A DNA stretch of 38,464 nucleotides, from NCBI GenBank assembly GCA_027030405.1, contig JALVEZ010000073.1, positions 1 through 38,464 of the forward strand, given 5' to 3'. Positions 20,289-25,872 of the stretch are shown here, piece by piece (the stretch's first letter is position 1; each line of letters starts with the position of its first letter). This stretch comes from Hydrogenothermaceae bacterium (GTDB lineage: Bacteria; Aquificota; Aquificia; Aquificales; Hydrogenothermaceae). Position numbers and translations under genes: made by a program. A model generated the notes under the pieces. It was given only the letters and a program-made list of their open reading frames with translations, did not search any database and was not told the origin of the DNA.

Positions 20289-21593
20289 TTATGGTTTTAC
20301 TATTACACAAGCATAACCTTTAGGAATATAATTCTTCCACGCTTCCAAAATATCATTTTTATTGACTTTGTTAATATAATCAACATACAGTTTATCAAAT
20401 TTATATCCTAACCCAACTGTTTCAAACCATCCTAAATACCATGACTGTTTTGCCCGTGTTTGATGGTCTAACAGGAAATGACCGACTATTTTTTCTTTAG
20501 CTATCTGGATCTCTTCATCAGATACACCTTTTGAGATACTATTTACAACTTCTTTTATTCCTTCCACAGATTCTTCTGTTTTTTGAGGTGCTGTTCCTAT
20601 GTATGCAAATAATCTCCCCATATTTATTCTTGTTGGAAAAAATGAAGCAACTGCATAAGCAAGTCCTCTTTTTTCTCTTAACTCTTGAAAAAGTCTTGAT
20701 GTAAAACCACTTCCCAAGATGCCGTTCAGAACTTTCATTGCAAAATACTCTTTATCTTTAACAGAAGGAGCATTGTAAGCATATAAAATCGTTGATTGGG
20801 CTCCTTCCCTTTTTACTGTTTTACAACCTACATTTCCTATCTCATAGTTATAAACAGGAAATTTATAATCTTTTTTGTTTTTCAGACTTCCAAATGTATC
20901 TTTTATAAGATTTTCCACTTTTGAATAAGAAACATCACCAACAAAAGAAACCACGAATCTTGAACTTTCCATAAGTTCATTCCATCTTTTTTGTATATCC
21001 TTTTTTGAAATAGTTTTCACATCACTAACTTCACCTAAAACAGGATACTGATATGGTGTGTCTTTATAAATTATTTTTCTTAGTTCATCAAAAGCATAAG
21101 AAAAGCCTTCTTCTTTTTTGGCAATGATCTGAGCAATTGTGTTTTGTTTTTCCTGTTCCAACTTATCTTCAGGAAAAATAGGATTTAAAAGCATATCCTT
21201 TATTCTCTTAAGACCTTCGCCTAAATCTTCAACTCTTAAAGCAAATTCAATAATCGAATATTCCTCTGAGACAGATGCAGAAATATAACCTCCACTATTT
21301 TCAAAAAGCTTATTAAATGAGATGAAATCATAATTTTTAGTTCCTTTTAAAGCCATTTTAAAAGTTAGATTTGTCAATCCTTTTTTTCCTTTTGGGTCTT
21401 CGATACTGCCACCCTTAATAAATATTGAACCTGCAATAATACCAAGCCCTTCCGTTTCTTTAAAAAGAACTATCACTTTATTTGCCAGAATATTTTTAAT
21501 CACTTCTTGACCTCCATTATTATCCTTCCCGAAAGAACTGTAAGAAAAGATTAAGAAAACTACAAATATTATAATCTGTAAATGTTTTTTCAT
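20289..21593 (-). CDS. M16-family peptidase homologue, catalytically degenerate
   Basis: A 434-residue secreted protein with a signal peptide (about residues 4-22). It has the two-lobed M16 plan: GSIFIKGGSIEDPKGKKGLTNLTFKM at the N-terminal lobe and YNAPSVKDKEYFAMKVLNGILGSGFTSRLFQELREKRGLAYAVAS in the C-terminal lobe. The zinc site HxxEH should fall at GLxHFLEHM; here it reads GLTNLTFKM, so all three ligands are lost. In M16B pairs one partner is often inactive but supplies the R/Y motif (here RGLAYA), so this may be the non-catalytic half of a heterodimer. No catalytic partner is in the window. It precedes speE by 21 bases. Confidence 0.88.
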   Translation of the reverse strand: MKKHLQIIIFVVFLIFSYSSFGKDNNGGQEVIKNILANKVIVLFKETEGLGIIAGSIFIKGGSIEDPKGKKGLTNLTFKMALKGTKNYDFISFNKLFENSGGYISASVSEEYSIIEFALRVEDLGEGLKRIKDMLLNPIFPEDKLEQEKQNTIAQIIAKKEEGFSYAFDELRKIIYKDTPYQYPVLGEVSDVKTISKKDIQKRWNELMESSRFVVSFVGDVSYSKVENLIKDTFGSLKNKKDYKFPVYNYEIGNVGCKTVKREGAQSTILYAYNAPSVKDKEYFAMKVLNGILGSGFTSRLFQELREKRGLAYAVASFFPTRINMGRLFAYIGTAPQKTEESVEGIKEVVNSISKGVSDEEIQIAKEKIVGHFLLDHQTRAKQSWYLGWFETVGLGYKFDKLYVDYINKVNKNDILEAWKNYIPKGYACVIVKP

Positions 21594-21651: not shown

Positions 21652-21716
21652 AAAAATAAAAAAGGGGGCCTCATTGCAAGGCCCCAGTAAATTTTGGGGG
21701 AGGGAGGGGGAGGTAC
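21652..21716 (-). ncRNA. Candidate C-rich small RNA or attenuator leader
   Basis: A predicted transcript of about 65 bases on the minus strand, read from three signals: a near-consensus promoter directly upstream, a C-tract (CCTCCCCCTCCCTCCCCC at 21695-21712) and a strong intrinsic terminator. The C-tract contains repeated CCUCC, the anti-Shine-Dalgarno sequence, so it could block ribosome sites as C-rich sRNAs do in other bacteria. The CCCC at the end of the C-tract can also pair with the GGGG of the terminator's 5' arm, so the same RNA could be an attenuator for the M16-speE-bpsA operon, whose first ATG lies 59 bases further on. I know of no named family that fits. The exact 5' end is an estimate. 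Confidence 0.6.
21665..21685 (-). terminator. Intrinsic terminator of the C-rich RNA
   Basis: On the minus strand GGGGCC, loop TTGCAATGA, GGCCCC, followed by CTTTTTTTATTTTT. The + strand has no T-run, so the direction is clear. Confidence 0.85.
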
Positions 21717-21721
21717 AATTA

Positions 21722-21750
21722 AATATACAACAACTTTTATGAACTGTCAA
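21722..21750 (-). promoter_or_regulatory. Near-consensus sigma70 promoter of the C-rich RNA
   Basis: Minus strand TTGACA (21750-21745), 17-base spacer, TATATT (21727-21722). This is the best promoter match I find in the window: a perfect -35, five of six at -10, and ideal spacing. The start should be near 21716-21714. Confidence 0.75.
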
Positions 21751-21959
21751 CAAAAGTTAATAACATTTTAAAAAGTTCATAACTTCTAACCTTTTAAGGT
21801 ATTGATAACTATTACTAACAATAAAATATACCATAATAAGATATATTTTTAAATTTAAAAATAAAATTATGTTAAAAGTTTGAAAAAGACAACCGAAACC
21901 AAGTAAAAAATGAGAAACACTAAGTGATGGAATATATTTCTCTCCCACTTAAGAAATTA

Positions 21960-22330: not shown

Positions 22331-22360
22331 AAAAAAAGGCAGGTTTAAAACCTGCCTTTT
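22331..22360 (-). terminator. Terminator of the cbb3-type oxidase operon
   Basis: Stem AAGGCAGGT.../...ACCTGCCTT closing over TTAA, followed on the minus strand by TTTTTTTACT. It is symmetric and flanked by A and T runs, so it may work in both directions. Confidence 0.88.
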
Positions 22361-22395: not shown

Positions 22396-22620
22396 CTAGT
22401 TTCTCATTAATTCTCTTATCCAGATATATTTATCTGCAGCTTCTGGGCCTTGATTCATTACACTTAACCATCCTAAAAAATCGGGTATCCAGTCTAAAAC
22501 TATATATGAAACTGCAAAGATAATATATCCAATCCAGAATAACATCCACCATGTAGGAACTGCATCTGTAACATATGTAATCTTATCTACTGCTTTCGTA
22601 TTATCTAAGTGACTAGCCAT
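22396..22620 (-). CDS. Heme-free CcoP N-terminal-like subunit of the oxidase
   Basis: A 74-residue protein from the ATG at 22620, with AGGAGGG eight bases upstream. An upstream TTG in frame lies inside the previous gene's end and inside the ribosome site, so I reject it. One membrane helix follows the motif DAVPTWWMLFWIGYIIFAVSYIVLDW, matching the N-terminus of CcoP (LPRWWLWLFY...YLVLYP). The heme domains of CcoP are missing here; a diheme cytochrome is encoded at the other end of the operon. It overlaps the previous gene by eight bases. Confidence 0.75.
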   Translation of the reverse strand: MASHLDNTKAVDKITYVTDAVPTWWMLFWIGYIIFAVSYIVLDWIPDFLGWLSVMNQGPEAADKYIWIRELMRN

Positions 22621-22903
22621 TTTTAAGCCCTCCTTTTTCAACTTCTTGAATTTTTTCTTCCAAATCTAAGATATCGTATTTAGGAGCCTCGATATCCTTA
22701 AAATCCCCTTTGAGGTAAGAATATACAAATAAGAAAAACCATCCAGTTAAAGCAATAATATATGAAATAACTTCAACTAAAAATCCTTTCATTTCAAATC
22801 CAGCTTCAAGATAAGCAACAGTTCTAACTGCGATTACTGTACCTACAACAAATAAGAAAATGAATAATGTAAGTAGTGAAACTAATTTTGAATTAATTTT
22901 CAA
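22613..22903 (-). CDS. Two-helix membrane protein of the oxidase operon
   Basis: The protein has about 96 residues, with two hydrophobic helices (about 8-28 and 40-62) and a charged C-terminal tail ending in KKG-rich sequence. I favour the TTG at 22903, which sits eight bases behind AGGAGG; a GTG at 22912 overlaps the ribosome site. I do not recognise a named family. Position between the CcoO and CcoP-like genes suggests an accessory subunit like CcoQ, though it is longer than usual CcoQ. Confidence 0.7.
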   Translation of the reverse strand: MKINSKLVSLLTLFIFLFVVGTVIAVRTVAYLEAGFEMKGFLVEVISYIIALTGWFFLFVYSYLKGDFKDIEAPKYDILDLEEKIQEVEKGGLKNG

Positions 22904-22961
22904 CCTGAACACCTCCTTGAGGTTGATAAAATTGAGGAGGAAAATCCTCCTCTTTTATAAA

Positions 22962-23678
22962 TCATTTTAAAGCCCATTCTTTAGTTGGTTTAACTTCCCA
23001 TGTTCCTAACCATTGTAAGTAAACTAACATTGCCAATCCTCTTTCATTAGGAACTAACTTTCCATCTTTGTTCTTTTCGAAGAACCAAGGATACCCTGGC
23101 ATATTTGTTCCAGGAGAAGTAGACGCAGGATCGTATAAGTGAGCTACCTGCCAGTCTATGTCGTGAACAGCAGCTTCTCTAATTAAGTCAGGCCCTATTC
23201 TTTTTGTTCCCCATAAAACTGGAGCCTGTAATTCATTTTGATATTCAGAAGGGTAAGAAACTGTGTTTGATACACCAGGAATTCCGAATCTTAATGTCTC
23301 ATTTGAAACTGGTCTTACATCCTGAGAGTGGCAGTTCCAGCAACCTTCAGCAACATACCATCTATGACCTATAGCTAAAGCTTTAGCAAAAGTTTCTTCA
23401 TTTGGAGCACAGTTAGAAACTTTTCCAGCACCTGCAAATTTCTCTTCATAATCACAGAACTTTTTAAATTGTTCTGGATAATATCTTGCTAATTTTTCAA
23501 AGTCAGCCCATGCTGAATAGTTTTTTGCTTTAGCTTCTGCAGCTAAATCTGTCTTAGTTTTCATTGGAATATCTTTTAAAACAAACATTGGTAATGCCCA
23601 TGATACAAAGTCAGCAAACAGGAAGAATATAACCCCTGCAACTAACGCAACGAATGAAAATCTTTCCATTTTACCCAT
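22962..23678 (-). CDS. ccoO: Cytochrome c oxidase cbb3-type subunit II
   Basis: A membrane-anchored monoheme cytochrome c of 238 residues. One N-terminal helix (about 5-30) is followed by a periplasmic domain with the CcoO signature EGCWNCHSQDVRP (CXXCH near 116-120), WGTKRIGPDLIRE, and MPGYPWFF containing the axial Met. It carries electrons to the binuclear centre of subunit I. It begins 15 bases after ccoN behind GGGAGGT. About 40 residues after the anchor form an insertion not typical of proteobacterial CcoO. Confidence 0.93.
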   Translation of the reverse strand: MGKMERFSFVALVAGVIFFLFADFVSWALPMFVLKDIPMKTKTDLAAEAKAKNYSAWADFEKLARYYPEQFKKFCDYEEKFAGAGKVSNCAPNEETFAKALAIGHRWYVAEGCWNCHSQDVRPVSNETLRFGIPGVSNTVSYPSEYQNELQAPVLWGTKRIGPDLIREAAVHDIDWQVAHLYDPASTSPGTNMPGYPWFFEKNKDGKLVPNERGLAMLVYLQWLGTWEVKPTKEWALK

Positions 23679-23693
23679 AATTTGATACCTCCC

Positions 23694-25088
23694 TTAAACC
23701 GAATCTGATCTAAGCTCTGCGGATAATCCTTTTCCTGCAGTAGCTGTTTTCCAGAAGTTAACTGCATACATAAATAATCCTGTTAACATCATAATTCCAA
23801 GAACACTTCTGAAGTACCAGAACGGTTTAGAGAAGTTTACAGAATCAATCCAAGGATTTAATCCAATCCAGTCAAATCCAACAACAAGACCAGCTGCAGT
23901 TAAATCAAAGAACATAGCAAGAACACCAATCATAAGTAACCAGTAAGCACCTTCAGATAAACCTTTTGAGTACATAGTTTCTTTTCCAAAGAGTTTAGGC
24001 CATACATACTCTGCCATACCGAGAACCCATAAACCAAAGGTACCGAACATTATAAGGTGAGCATGTCCTGTAACCCAATCTGTAAAGTGAATAACTTTTT
24101 GGAATGTTAATGTAACGTGGAATGCACACTGGAAGCAAGTAATCCAATAGAAAATAGCACCTGTGTACATATATCTTAAAGGAACATTGTATTTTAACTG
24201 TTCTGCAGAACCTCTTAAAGTCATCATAAAGTTAATTAAAACTGAAGTAACAGCAAACTCAATAGCAACAGTTGCAAAAACAGCTGAGTACTGAGCAAAC
24301 ATTGGAATTGGAGACCATAAGAAATGGTGAACACCATTCATTGGATAGAAAAATGCTAATCCCCAGAATCCAAGTAAAGATAAACCGTGAGACCACATAG
24401 GTTTTTTCATGATAATTGGAACAAAATAGTACATTAACCCCCATGCAACTGGAGTAACATAAAGTCCAACAAGGTCATGAATAAATGTAGACTGAACTGC
24501 ACCTGCTCCAGCACCTGCAGACCAGAATCTTGGGATCATGTTACCCATGAAAACAACCAGTGGAGTCCAAACGAGCATTGCAGAAATGTACCATCCAGAA
24601 ACATATAAAGGTCCTCTTTGAGATGCTTTGAATAAAGGAGCTCCAAATTGAACTAAGTGTAGTAATAACCAGAATACGATAATTGGGTCAATCCACCAAG
24701 GAGTTTCACCCCACTCAACGTTATCTGCTTGACCTAAGAAAAGTATAGCTACAACAGTGATTAAAACAGCAGCCTGTAAAGCTATCCACATAAACCAACC
24801 GAGTGCATCACTTAAAACTCTGTATCCTGTAAATCTTGGAACAGCCCAGTATAAAAGACCTGCAAACATATTAACTAAAAATCCATATGCAGCACCTGCT
24901 GTATGAATCATTCTAACTCTACCTGGAGATAAGAACTCAATTCCAGGGAAAGGATAAATTCCATCCAATTGTAAAGAGTATAAGAATCCTACCAATCCAA
25001 CAATTATAAAGAATACAAGCCCCATCGCTATATGGGCTTTAACAAGTCCATAATTAACTAAATTTTGTAAATCTTGAGTATTTGACAT
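23694..25088 (-). CDS. ccoN: Cytochrome c oxidase cbb3-type catalytic subunit I
   Basis: A heme-copper O2 reductase subunit of 464 residues with about 12 membrane helices. Conserved histidines are seen at RMIHTAGAAYGF (heme b ligand), STFIHDLVGLY (CuB), FFYPMNGVHHFLW (CuB pair, with the Tyr of the helix-7 His-Tyr cross-link), and IHFTDWVTGHAHL (heme ligands). The arrangement is cbb3-like rather than aa3-like. It lies between the diheme cytochrome and ccoO genes and ends the respiratory chain at high O2 affinity. NO reductase is the main alternative, but the helix-7 Tyr and the adjacent ccoO argue against it. Confidence 0.92.
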   Translation of the reverse strand: MSNTQDLQNLVNYGLVKAHIAMGLVFFIIVGLVGFLYSLQLDGIYPFPGIEFLSPGRVRMIHTAGAAYGFLVNMFAGLLYWAVPRFTGYRVLSDALGWFMWIALQAAVLITVVAILFLGQADNVEWGETPWWIDPIIVFWLLLHLVQFGAPLFKASQRGPLYVSGWYISAMLVWTPLVVFMGNMIPRFWSAGAGAGAVQSTFIHDLVGLYVTPVAWGLMYYFVPIIMKKPMWSHGLSLLGFWGLAFFYPMNGVHHFLWSPIPMFAQYSAVFATVAIEFAVTSVLINFMMTLRGSAEQLKYNVPLRYMYTGAIFYWITCFQCAFHVTLTFQKVIHFTDWVTGHAHLIMFGTFGLWVLGMAEYVWPKLFGKETMYSKGLSEGAYWLLMIGVLAMFFDLTAAGLVVGFDWIGLNPWIDSVNFSKPFWYFRSVLGIMMLTGLFMYAVNFWKTATAGKGLSAELRSDSV

Positions 25089-25101
25089 TCTTCAGCCCTC
25101 C

Positions 25102-25872
25102 TTATTTTTTACCCTGATTCATTAAATAAGCAATGTATGAAACGAGATGCCATCTATCTTCCTCAGATAAGTATCCGAAAGCTGGCATTGGAGAACCTTC
25201 TAAACCAACTGTTAAAACTCTGAAAGTATCTTCAGGTTTTGGCCCAGCTGCTCTAACAGGATAAGTTAGATTTGTTGGAGGAACTGGTAATGATGCAGCA
25301 GCAGCACCGTCCCCTTTTCCAGTATCTCCGTGACATCCATTACAACCATTCATTACATATAACTCTTTTCCTTTGTTGATAGATTCTTGAGTTCCAAAAT
25401 ATTCAGGAACACCATTGAGCTTTTTGTAAATAGATTCTCCAGGTTTTTCTTTTTCCCATCTGTCAGAAAAAGTTTTGATGTAAGCAATAACCGCTTTCTT
25501 TTGAATTTCAGGAACTAAATGGAAAGAAGGCATAGCTGTTTGAGGAATACCCCAGTTTAAGATATGCATTAAATCTTCATCTGTAGGTAAAGTTCCTTCT
25601 GGTGTAGATTTCCATCTAAAGATAGCTGTGTGAAAGTTTGGTGGCTTATTTTTAAAAAATGGAGCTGCCATACTATTTCCATCTCCATTAGGTCCGTGAC
25701 AACCTACACAGTACTTGTTATAAACCTTTCTTCCTTGTTCTTCCATTGCTGTAAGTTCTTTTGTCTTTTTAGCCTGAGCAGGTTTTGATGAATAGACATG
25801 CATCAGTCCATAGACGAATAACAGCGGTAAAAAGAAGAACATTAACCACCTGAGGGTCGTGTTTTCTCCCAT
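25102..25872 (-). CDS. Membrane-anchored diheme cytochrome c (split CcoP-like)
   Basis: A 256-residue protein with one N-terminal helix (about 8-27) and two class I cytochrome c domains. CXXCH motifs are YCVGCHGPNGDG (about 55-59) and NGCNGCHGDTGKGDG (about 178-182); Met ligands are probably in TAMPSFH and SPMPAFG. The diheme pattern matches the soluble part of CcoP, but here it is an independent gene at the head of the operon with its own anchor, while the CcoP-like N-terminal segment is the last gene. It probably feeds electrons to CcoO/CcoN. Start behind GGAGGT. Confidence 0.9.
   Translation of the reverse strand: MGENTTLRWLMFFFLPLLFVYGLMHVYSSKPAQAKKTKELTAMEEQGRKVYNKYCVGCHGPNGDGNSMAAPFFKNKPPNFHTAIFRWKSTPEGTLPTDEDLMHILNWGIPQTAMPSFHLVPEIQKKAVIAYIKTFSDRWEKEKPGESIYKKLNGVPEYFGTQESINKGKELYVMNGCNGCHGDTGKGDGAAAASLPVPPTNLTYPVRAAGPKPEDTFRVLTVGLEGSPMPAFGYLSEEDRWHLVSYIAYLMNQGKK

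Follow-up and report, generated by a model that had tools for sequence, protein, structure and literature searches.

Between two genes in the AT-rich DNA of a Hydrogenothermaceae contig (JALVEZ010000073.1; here the window, the whole stretch of 38,464 nt that was analysed) lies a short pyrimidine tract, which raises the question of whether it belongs to a small RNA gene and, if so, of what kind and with which partners. The original prediction had named a promoter, a C-rich tract and a terminator and had given no strand. All three are present on the minus strand (Table 1): a promoter TTGACA-17-TATATT at 21750-21722 (11 of 12 matches), the tract CCTCCCCCTCCCTCCCCC of 18 C/U residues at 21713-21696, and a stem at 21685-21665 followed by CTTTTTT with its U6 tail, the intrinsic terminator spanning 21685-21658. 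The discrete RNA that had been foreseen stands, with a predicted length of about 59 nt in place of the proposed 65 bases or so. Its noncoding character is also upheld, as no ORF of at least 60 aa overlaps it on its own strand. Taken by itself, a promoter match is no evidence in AT-rich DNA; nine sigma-70-like matches were found in the window versus 8.2 expected. The predicted fold (-15.4 kcal/mol, with the C-tract unpaired) is only mildly unusual as a single sequence (z -2.2). The C-tract pattern, with up to three mismatches allowed, occurs once in the window versus 0.01 expected, and the order of sigma-70 promoter, 5' C-tract and 8-bp terminator stem is found there with a covariance score of 72.3 bits (match at 21659-21720). 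The RNA is presumably transcribed in the organism of the window.

Table 1 Features of the C-tract RNA gene and its neighbours in the window
Feature	Position	Strand	Remarks
cbb3-type cytochrome oxidase operon (COX1/CcoN, FixO/CcoO, two small genes, c-type cytochrome)	22396..25872	-	upstream
AT-rich stretch with TTAWTAA-like repeats GTTATTAAC / GTTCATAAA flanking the -35 box	21724..21771	-	spacing about 20 bp
-35 element TTGACA	21745..21750	-	TTGA invariant across 20 orthologues
-10 element TATATT, spacer 17 nt	21722..21727	-	TA..TT kept across 20 orthologues
Predicted type A sRNA, about 59 nt	21658..21716	-	start placed from the -10 box, +/-2 nt
C-tract CCUCCCCCUCCCUCCCCC, 5'-terminal, single-stranded; putative anti-SD pairing region	21696..21713	-	nearly invariant among orthologues
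A/U linker AAAAUUUACU	21686..21695	-	length varies between orthologues
Terminator stem, 8 bp, GCAAU loop	21665..21685	-	6/8 pairs with two-sided changes, 100% of cells paired
Terminator U-tract, a 3' end that might bind Hfq	21658..21663	-	T6 tail; genome with two hfq genes
M16 peptidase gene	20289..21593	-	downstream; not a conserved neighbour

That the gene is real follows from its conservation and not from the promoter match or the single fold. A DNA search of 41 genomes of the family gave matches in 25, and 20 orthologues of the window's RNA (type A) were aligned over promoter, C-tract, linker and terminator. Promoter, tract and terminator are kept in these 20, the conservation in relatives on which the original prediction was to stand or fall. 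Little or no variation is seen in the -35 core TTGA, the C-tract and the GCAA loop; spacer and linker drift. The terminator stem changes in sequence and keeps its pairing: all cells are paired and none is broken, two-sided changes occur in six of the eight pairs (30 such cells versus 9.3 in shuffles), the covariation score was reached by none of 500 shuffles, and sliding the stem partners abolishes the signal. Such changes with the pairs kept show selection acting on an RNA with this terminator as its 3' end. A chance feature is ruled out by the orthologue conservation, the stem covariation and the rarity of the C-tract, and the window's RNA is almost certainly encoded by a free-standing noncoding sRNA gene. 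In the public complete genome of Persephonella marina, the type A C-tract contains an N (chromosome position 376671), probably marking a homopolymer that is hard to read.

In most genera the conserved neighbour of type A is the cbb3 operon, and in most genomes the RNA is located between this operon and a rhomboid-like gene. In one genus (g4) it lies behind gltX and the next gene is convergent; a different gene follows in the window. A sister RNA, type B, is encoded between gatC and topA, which are transcribed from the other strand, and has no co-oriented downstream gene. Since the neighbours change between genomes, the RNA is an independent gene rather than the leader of any one operon. A 5' leader or attenuator, in which C-tract and hairpin would form the beginning of the mRNA of the next gene (rhomboid-like or M16 peptidase) and govern read-through, would suit the co-directional next gene found at about 100 nt or less from the terminator in the window and at most type A loci. 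No ligand domain, leader peptide or antiterminator helix able to beat the 8-bp stem was seen, nor was there a conserved co-oriented downstream gene of the sort that marks leaders, riboswitches and attenuators. As a general explanation a leader is ruled out by the convergent or differing downstream genes, and we regard it as improbable. The frequent position of type A behind the cbb3 operon would likewise agree with a mere 3' terminator of that operon next to a fortuitous promoter. The promoter, however, is conserved together with the terminator, type A follows gltX in genus g4, and type B is not 3' of any co-oriented gene, all of which makes this reading extremely improbable and leaves the independent sRNA gene as the one adopted here. 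A second strong terminator, AAAAGGCAGGTTTAAAACCTGCCTTTT, which is bidirectional, separates the cbb3 operon from a small lipoprotein-like gene in the window (22334-22360).

The type A covariance model matches 98 of 136 Aquificota genomes and 27 of 30 genera, a wide return for the phylum-level search that the original prediction had proposed. Three matches fall in the window's genome, namely the RNA described here, a clear type B RNA that lacks the FNR-like box seen in related loci (C7:23010-23072) and a weaker, divergent C-tract RNA (C174:1389-1447). The members were split by eye into types A-E, between which the register of the C-tract differs. Type B occurs once per genome and reads GCAUCCCCCUCCCUCCCC(C)UCCAUUUCCUGCGGGU..., with CCCCUCCAUUUCCUGCGG as its conserved 3' half. 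Type C (CUCCCCCUCCCUCCCC, tail CUUUCU) belongs to family f2, type D to genus g9 (Sulfurihydrogenibium) and type E (CCCCCUAUCCCCCUCCCUCCUCCCC) to family f5; yet another form is seen in Desulfurobacteriaceae contigs (L140, L157). Descent of all types from one ancestor, as opposed to convergence, is possible: model R1 detects types B-E at E values of 1e-14 to 1e-5, but the score comes largely from the C-tract, and promoters and loci differ. Many f2 forms (L061, L066, L090, L095, L099) carry GGGAGUGA(U/G)AAACUCCC just 5' of the C-tract, which may form a small hairpin at the 5' end and so conceal the tract's first CUCCC.

A scan of about 85,000 species genomes with the pattern CCCCCTCCCTCCCC...CCTTTYT gave 79 matching stretches, the majority of which have Aquificota titles (Persephonella, Sulfurihydrogenibium, Hydrogenothermus, Hydrogenobacter and Aquifex). 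An occurrence outside the Aquificota was rejected, as the off-phylum matches seem fortuitous, most of them being without the terminator architecture. One contig labelled Acidobacteria (L185, RFFP01000015.1) carries an Aquificaceae-type C-tract RNA and is probably mis-binned Aquificaceae DNA. No Rfam 15 family reached its gathering threshold in the window region, in line with the original view that no known RNA family has this build. The best sub-threshold sRNA match was mmgR/suhB (16.8 bits versus 41), and no Rfam match was obtained for the relatives either. The C-tract RNAs are a conserved Aquificota sRNA family outside Rfam with a distinctive minimal build, a 5'-terminal C-tract and a terminator.

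By kind, this family belongs to the C-rich anti-Shine-Dalgarno (anti-SD) sRNAs. RoxS/RsaE of Bacillus and Staphylococcus blocks SD sequences with its C-rich regions under redox- and respiration-linked regulation (NO, ResD) (PMC4409812). It differs in having four C-rich regions, a larger fold and a ResD site, and the window RNA has no Rfam match. IsrR of Staphylococcus pairs through C-rich single-stranded regions with the SD or start regions of nitrate-respiration genes and resembles the window RNA in operating in an AT-rich genome, which has few G-rich stretches other than SDs (PMC9410917). IsrR itself is a Firmicutes RNA with three C-rich regions, several stems and Fur boxes, to which no homology was seen; unlike IsrR, type A is without a Fur-like site, whereas type E of the Desulfurobacteriaceae has one. 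The alpha-r14 or cuckoo RNAs of the alpha-proteobacteria have a conserved pyrimidine anti-SD motif and stems of variable sequence (PMC10746234). In alpha-r14 the motif CCUCCUCCC is repeated in three hairpins, whereas the Aquificota family has one tract of 14-20 nt at the 5' end and one terminator hairpin, and CCUCCUCCC is absent from the window RNA. Judged by analogy, the window RNA appears to work like RoxS/RsaE, IsrR and alpha-r14 and is a member of none of these groups, because the Rfam thresholds are not reached and the number of motifs, the fold and the promoter sites differ.

Two further members lie on a 1,551,335-bp chromosome that we take to be that of Aquifex aeolicus VF5, with model matches at 989751-989814 (+) and 1168993-1169050 (-). 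Both matches fall, on the listed strands, inside published ncRNA candidates, n68 (Aae-65; 989704-989840, plus) and n75 (1168974-1169071, minus) (Lechner et al. 2014; PMC4227106). The two candidates have cDNA reads, and n75 was also tested on a Northern blot, where both strands were seen with bands larger and smaller than expected, the authors leaving its polarity open (PMC4227106). The family model suggests a polarity for n75. C-rich or CCUCC motifs are not mentioned in the main text of that paper (PMC4227106). Both RNAs were published as anonymous candidates without family or function, n75 also without orientation, and among the papers examined none was found that ties them to a function. Like the window RNA, n68 and n75 have a C-tract and a stem-loop; they differ in ending in a CTTTCT tail and in lacking the type A promoter and neighbourhood. 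The A. aeolicus relatives are previously detected RNAs, now placed in one family with an orientation that the model suggests. The description of the RNA as previously undescribed is narrowed by these two published relatives and holds for family, orientation and role, which are unassigned in the literature examined. An antisense G-rich RNA at the n75 locus, where both strands appeared on the Northern blot, could sponge the C-tract RNA.

The detection of two Aquifex members as RNA also bears on a reading at the DNA level, by which the opposite strand, GGGGGAGGGAGGGGGAGG, would form a G-quadruplex or pausing element at the promoter and the RNA would be a by-product. G-runs do lie on the template strand beside the promoter. 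A quadruplex, however, needs no exact tract with fixed T interruptions, and the terminator stem coevolves as RNA; we consider a DNA element very improbable.

The explanation that we regard as probable in its entirety is a trans-acting anti-SD sRNA serving respiratory adjustment. The stand-alone, sigma-70-transcribed type A RNA would act in trans, its unpaired 5' C-tract mimicking the anti-SD of the ribosome, pairing with mRNAs of unusually G-rich SD (GGGGAGG, GAGGGAGGGGG) and blocking 30S binding. The U-tailed terminator would stabilise the RNA and probably load Hfq. Encoded behind the cbb3 oxidase, type A would repress an alternative haem-copper oxidase in Persephonella and have other G-rich targets elsewhere, and the sister type B, under an FNR-like site, would act on denitrification operons. 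Type A probably tunes which respiratory enzymes are made; repression, Hfq dependence and the respiratory role are what we infer, and target pairing is a prediction throughout. Many type A members start with (AU)CACCUCC, like the 16S 3' end (GGAUCACCUCCUUU). All 21 genomes tested contain hfq, 20 of them two genes, and the window RNA combines a U-rich intrinsic terminator end with hfq in its genome (C252:2662-2850 and C66:10656-10838). The paired Aquificota hfq genes differ in the strength of their Pfam Hfq match.

Targets were sought on a complete chromosome of 1,930,284 bp, which we take to be that of P. marina EX-H1, with 1,950 genes from rough gene calling; the inspection of targets was partly post hoc. 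The C-tract is complementary to G-rich ribosome-binding sites, as had been recognised for CCUCC, and GGAGG is indeed the common SD in the window (18 of 38 called leaders). The further step to an RNA that could repress many messages is not supported. The type A tract is predicted to pair on average better with leaders (-11.5 kcal/mol) than with gene interiors (-9.6 kcal/mol), but shuffled tracts pair better still with the leaders (-13.1 kcal/mol), and GGGGAGG occurs in just 7 of the 1,950 leaders genome-wide. A general repressor of GGAGG messages is not favoured, shuffled tracts pairing equally well or better with the average leader, and the C-tract is richer in C than common AGGAGG sites need. 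What the target prediction on 5' leaders does bring out is a few G-rich leaders. Ranks 2 and 10 of 1,949 are held by two adjacent haem-copper oxidase genes, COX1 subunit I (553 aa) and the gene preceding it, which has no Pfam match and is taken as subunit II by position only. GGGGAGG is kept in the subunit II leaders of 10 of 11 species between divergent flanks, and no such conservation of GGGGAGG was seen in the leaders of nos and nap orthologues from these species. Judged from these sites, the case for this oxidase as a type A target where it is present is evenly poised. The neighbouring cbb3 genes, whose leaders are among the better predicted type A targets within the window, are not favoured, as in P. 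marina they have ordinary GGAGG sites with ranks of 166-1385, and G-rich conservation is absent from them. Overall, the evidence is consistent with a limited number of G-rich targets, most of them respiratory. In the window's genome neither a close copy of that haem-copper oxidase nor nosZ was found and the napA leader is without a long type B site, so that the window RNA's own target is not established.

The length and C-richness of the tract, which exceed what the common SD requires, would also be explained by a protein-binding decoy, a CrcZ-like sponge that titrates an RNA-binding protein and does not pair with mRNA; near-invariance and lack of structure are compatible with a protein site as well. 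Against this, exact complements occur at the start regions of functionally coherent genes, and the tract register differs between the types, as pairing would predict. We hold a decoy to be unlikely, and type A probably acts by antisense pairing at ribosome-binding sites.

For type B, the longest matches in the P. marina chromosome outside its own gene are three perfect sites. One of 18 nt lies in the leader and SD of the c-type cytochrome with which the cluster for nitrous oxide reductase (nos) opens, one of 16 nt falls barely within a small ORF at the end of the nap cluster, ahead of the nir genes, and one of 14 nt spans the start codon of napA. When type B was dinucleotide-shuffled 2,000 times, at least three matches of at least 14 nt were obtained in 0.9% of the shuffles and a match of at least 18 nt in 0.05%; that all three long sites lie in denitrification operons was noticed afterwards and stands outside this shuffle count. 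In other species the long sites at napA and nos are not conserved, only 7-9 nt being kept. On the strength of these complementarities we lean slightly towards denitrification as the target of type B in P. marina. An FNR/CRP-like site, ATGAT-N4-ATCAT, is present upstream of type B at 15 of 17 loci, versus 0.002 expected per window scanned, and is separated from the C-tract by 61-81 nt; the most frequent arrangement puts the box centre near -41.5, given the start as placed. The divergent gatC may share this site. A Crp/FNR-type regulator is encoded in the P. marina nos cluster.

More tentatively still, Aquificota may use phylum-wide minimal C-tract sRNAs of about 60 nt to switch respiratory chains by covering G-rich ribosome sites, type A silencing a rival haem-copper oxidase, type B denitrification under FNR-like control and type E iron-using enzymes under Fur-like control, and these RNAs may have evolved separately from RoxS and IsrR of the Firmicutes. 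If true, this would account for two Aquifex RNAs found years ago without a known role and would provide the deep-branching, thermophilic Aquificota with a phylum-wide sRNA family whose partners, testable ones, are mRNAs for denitrification and oxygen respiration. Seen alongside RoxS and IsrR, it would point to a repeated origin of C-rich respiratory sRNAs in AT-rich genomes. It would also supply plausible native partners for Aquifex Hfq, the crystal structure of which is known (PMC5379935).

The FNR-like, Fur-like and TTAWTAA sites serve as leads to the regulation of these RNAs. No FNR-like box was found in type A promoters. TTAWTAA repeats with a spacing of 20 bp (at -44 and -24) surround the -35 box in the majority of type A orthologues, a possible regulator site and a lead only. 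The search for a Fur-like box gave nothing convincing in types A-D, the best 7-1-7 match in the window promoter reaching 8 of 14 (p 0.985). Type E promoters contain a 7-1-7 Fur-like box with 11-12 of 14 matches (shuffles, p <= 0.01), and such a box suggests that the Desulfurobacteriaceae form is an iron-responsive sRNA. In this form (L101-L106) the box TGATAACTATTATTA is located over the promoter, about 20 nt 5' of the C-tract, and is duplicated in L105.
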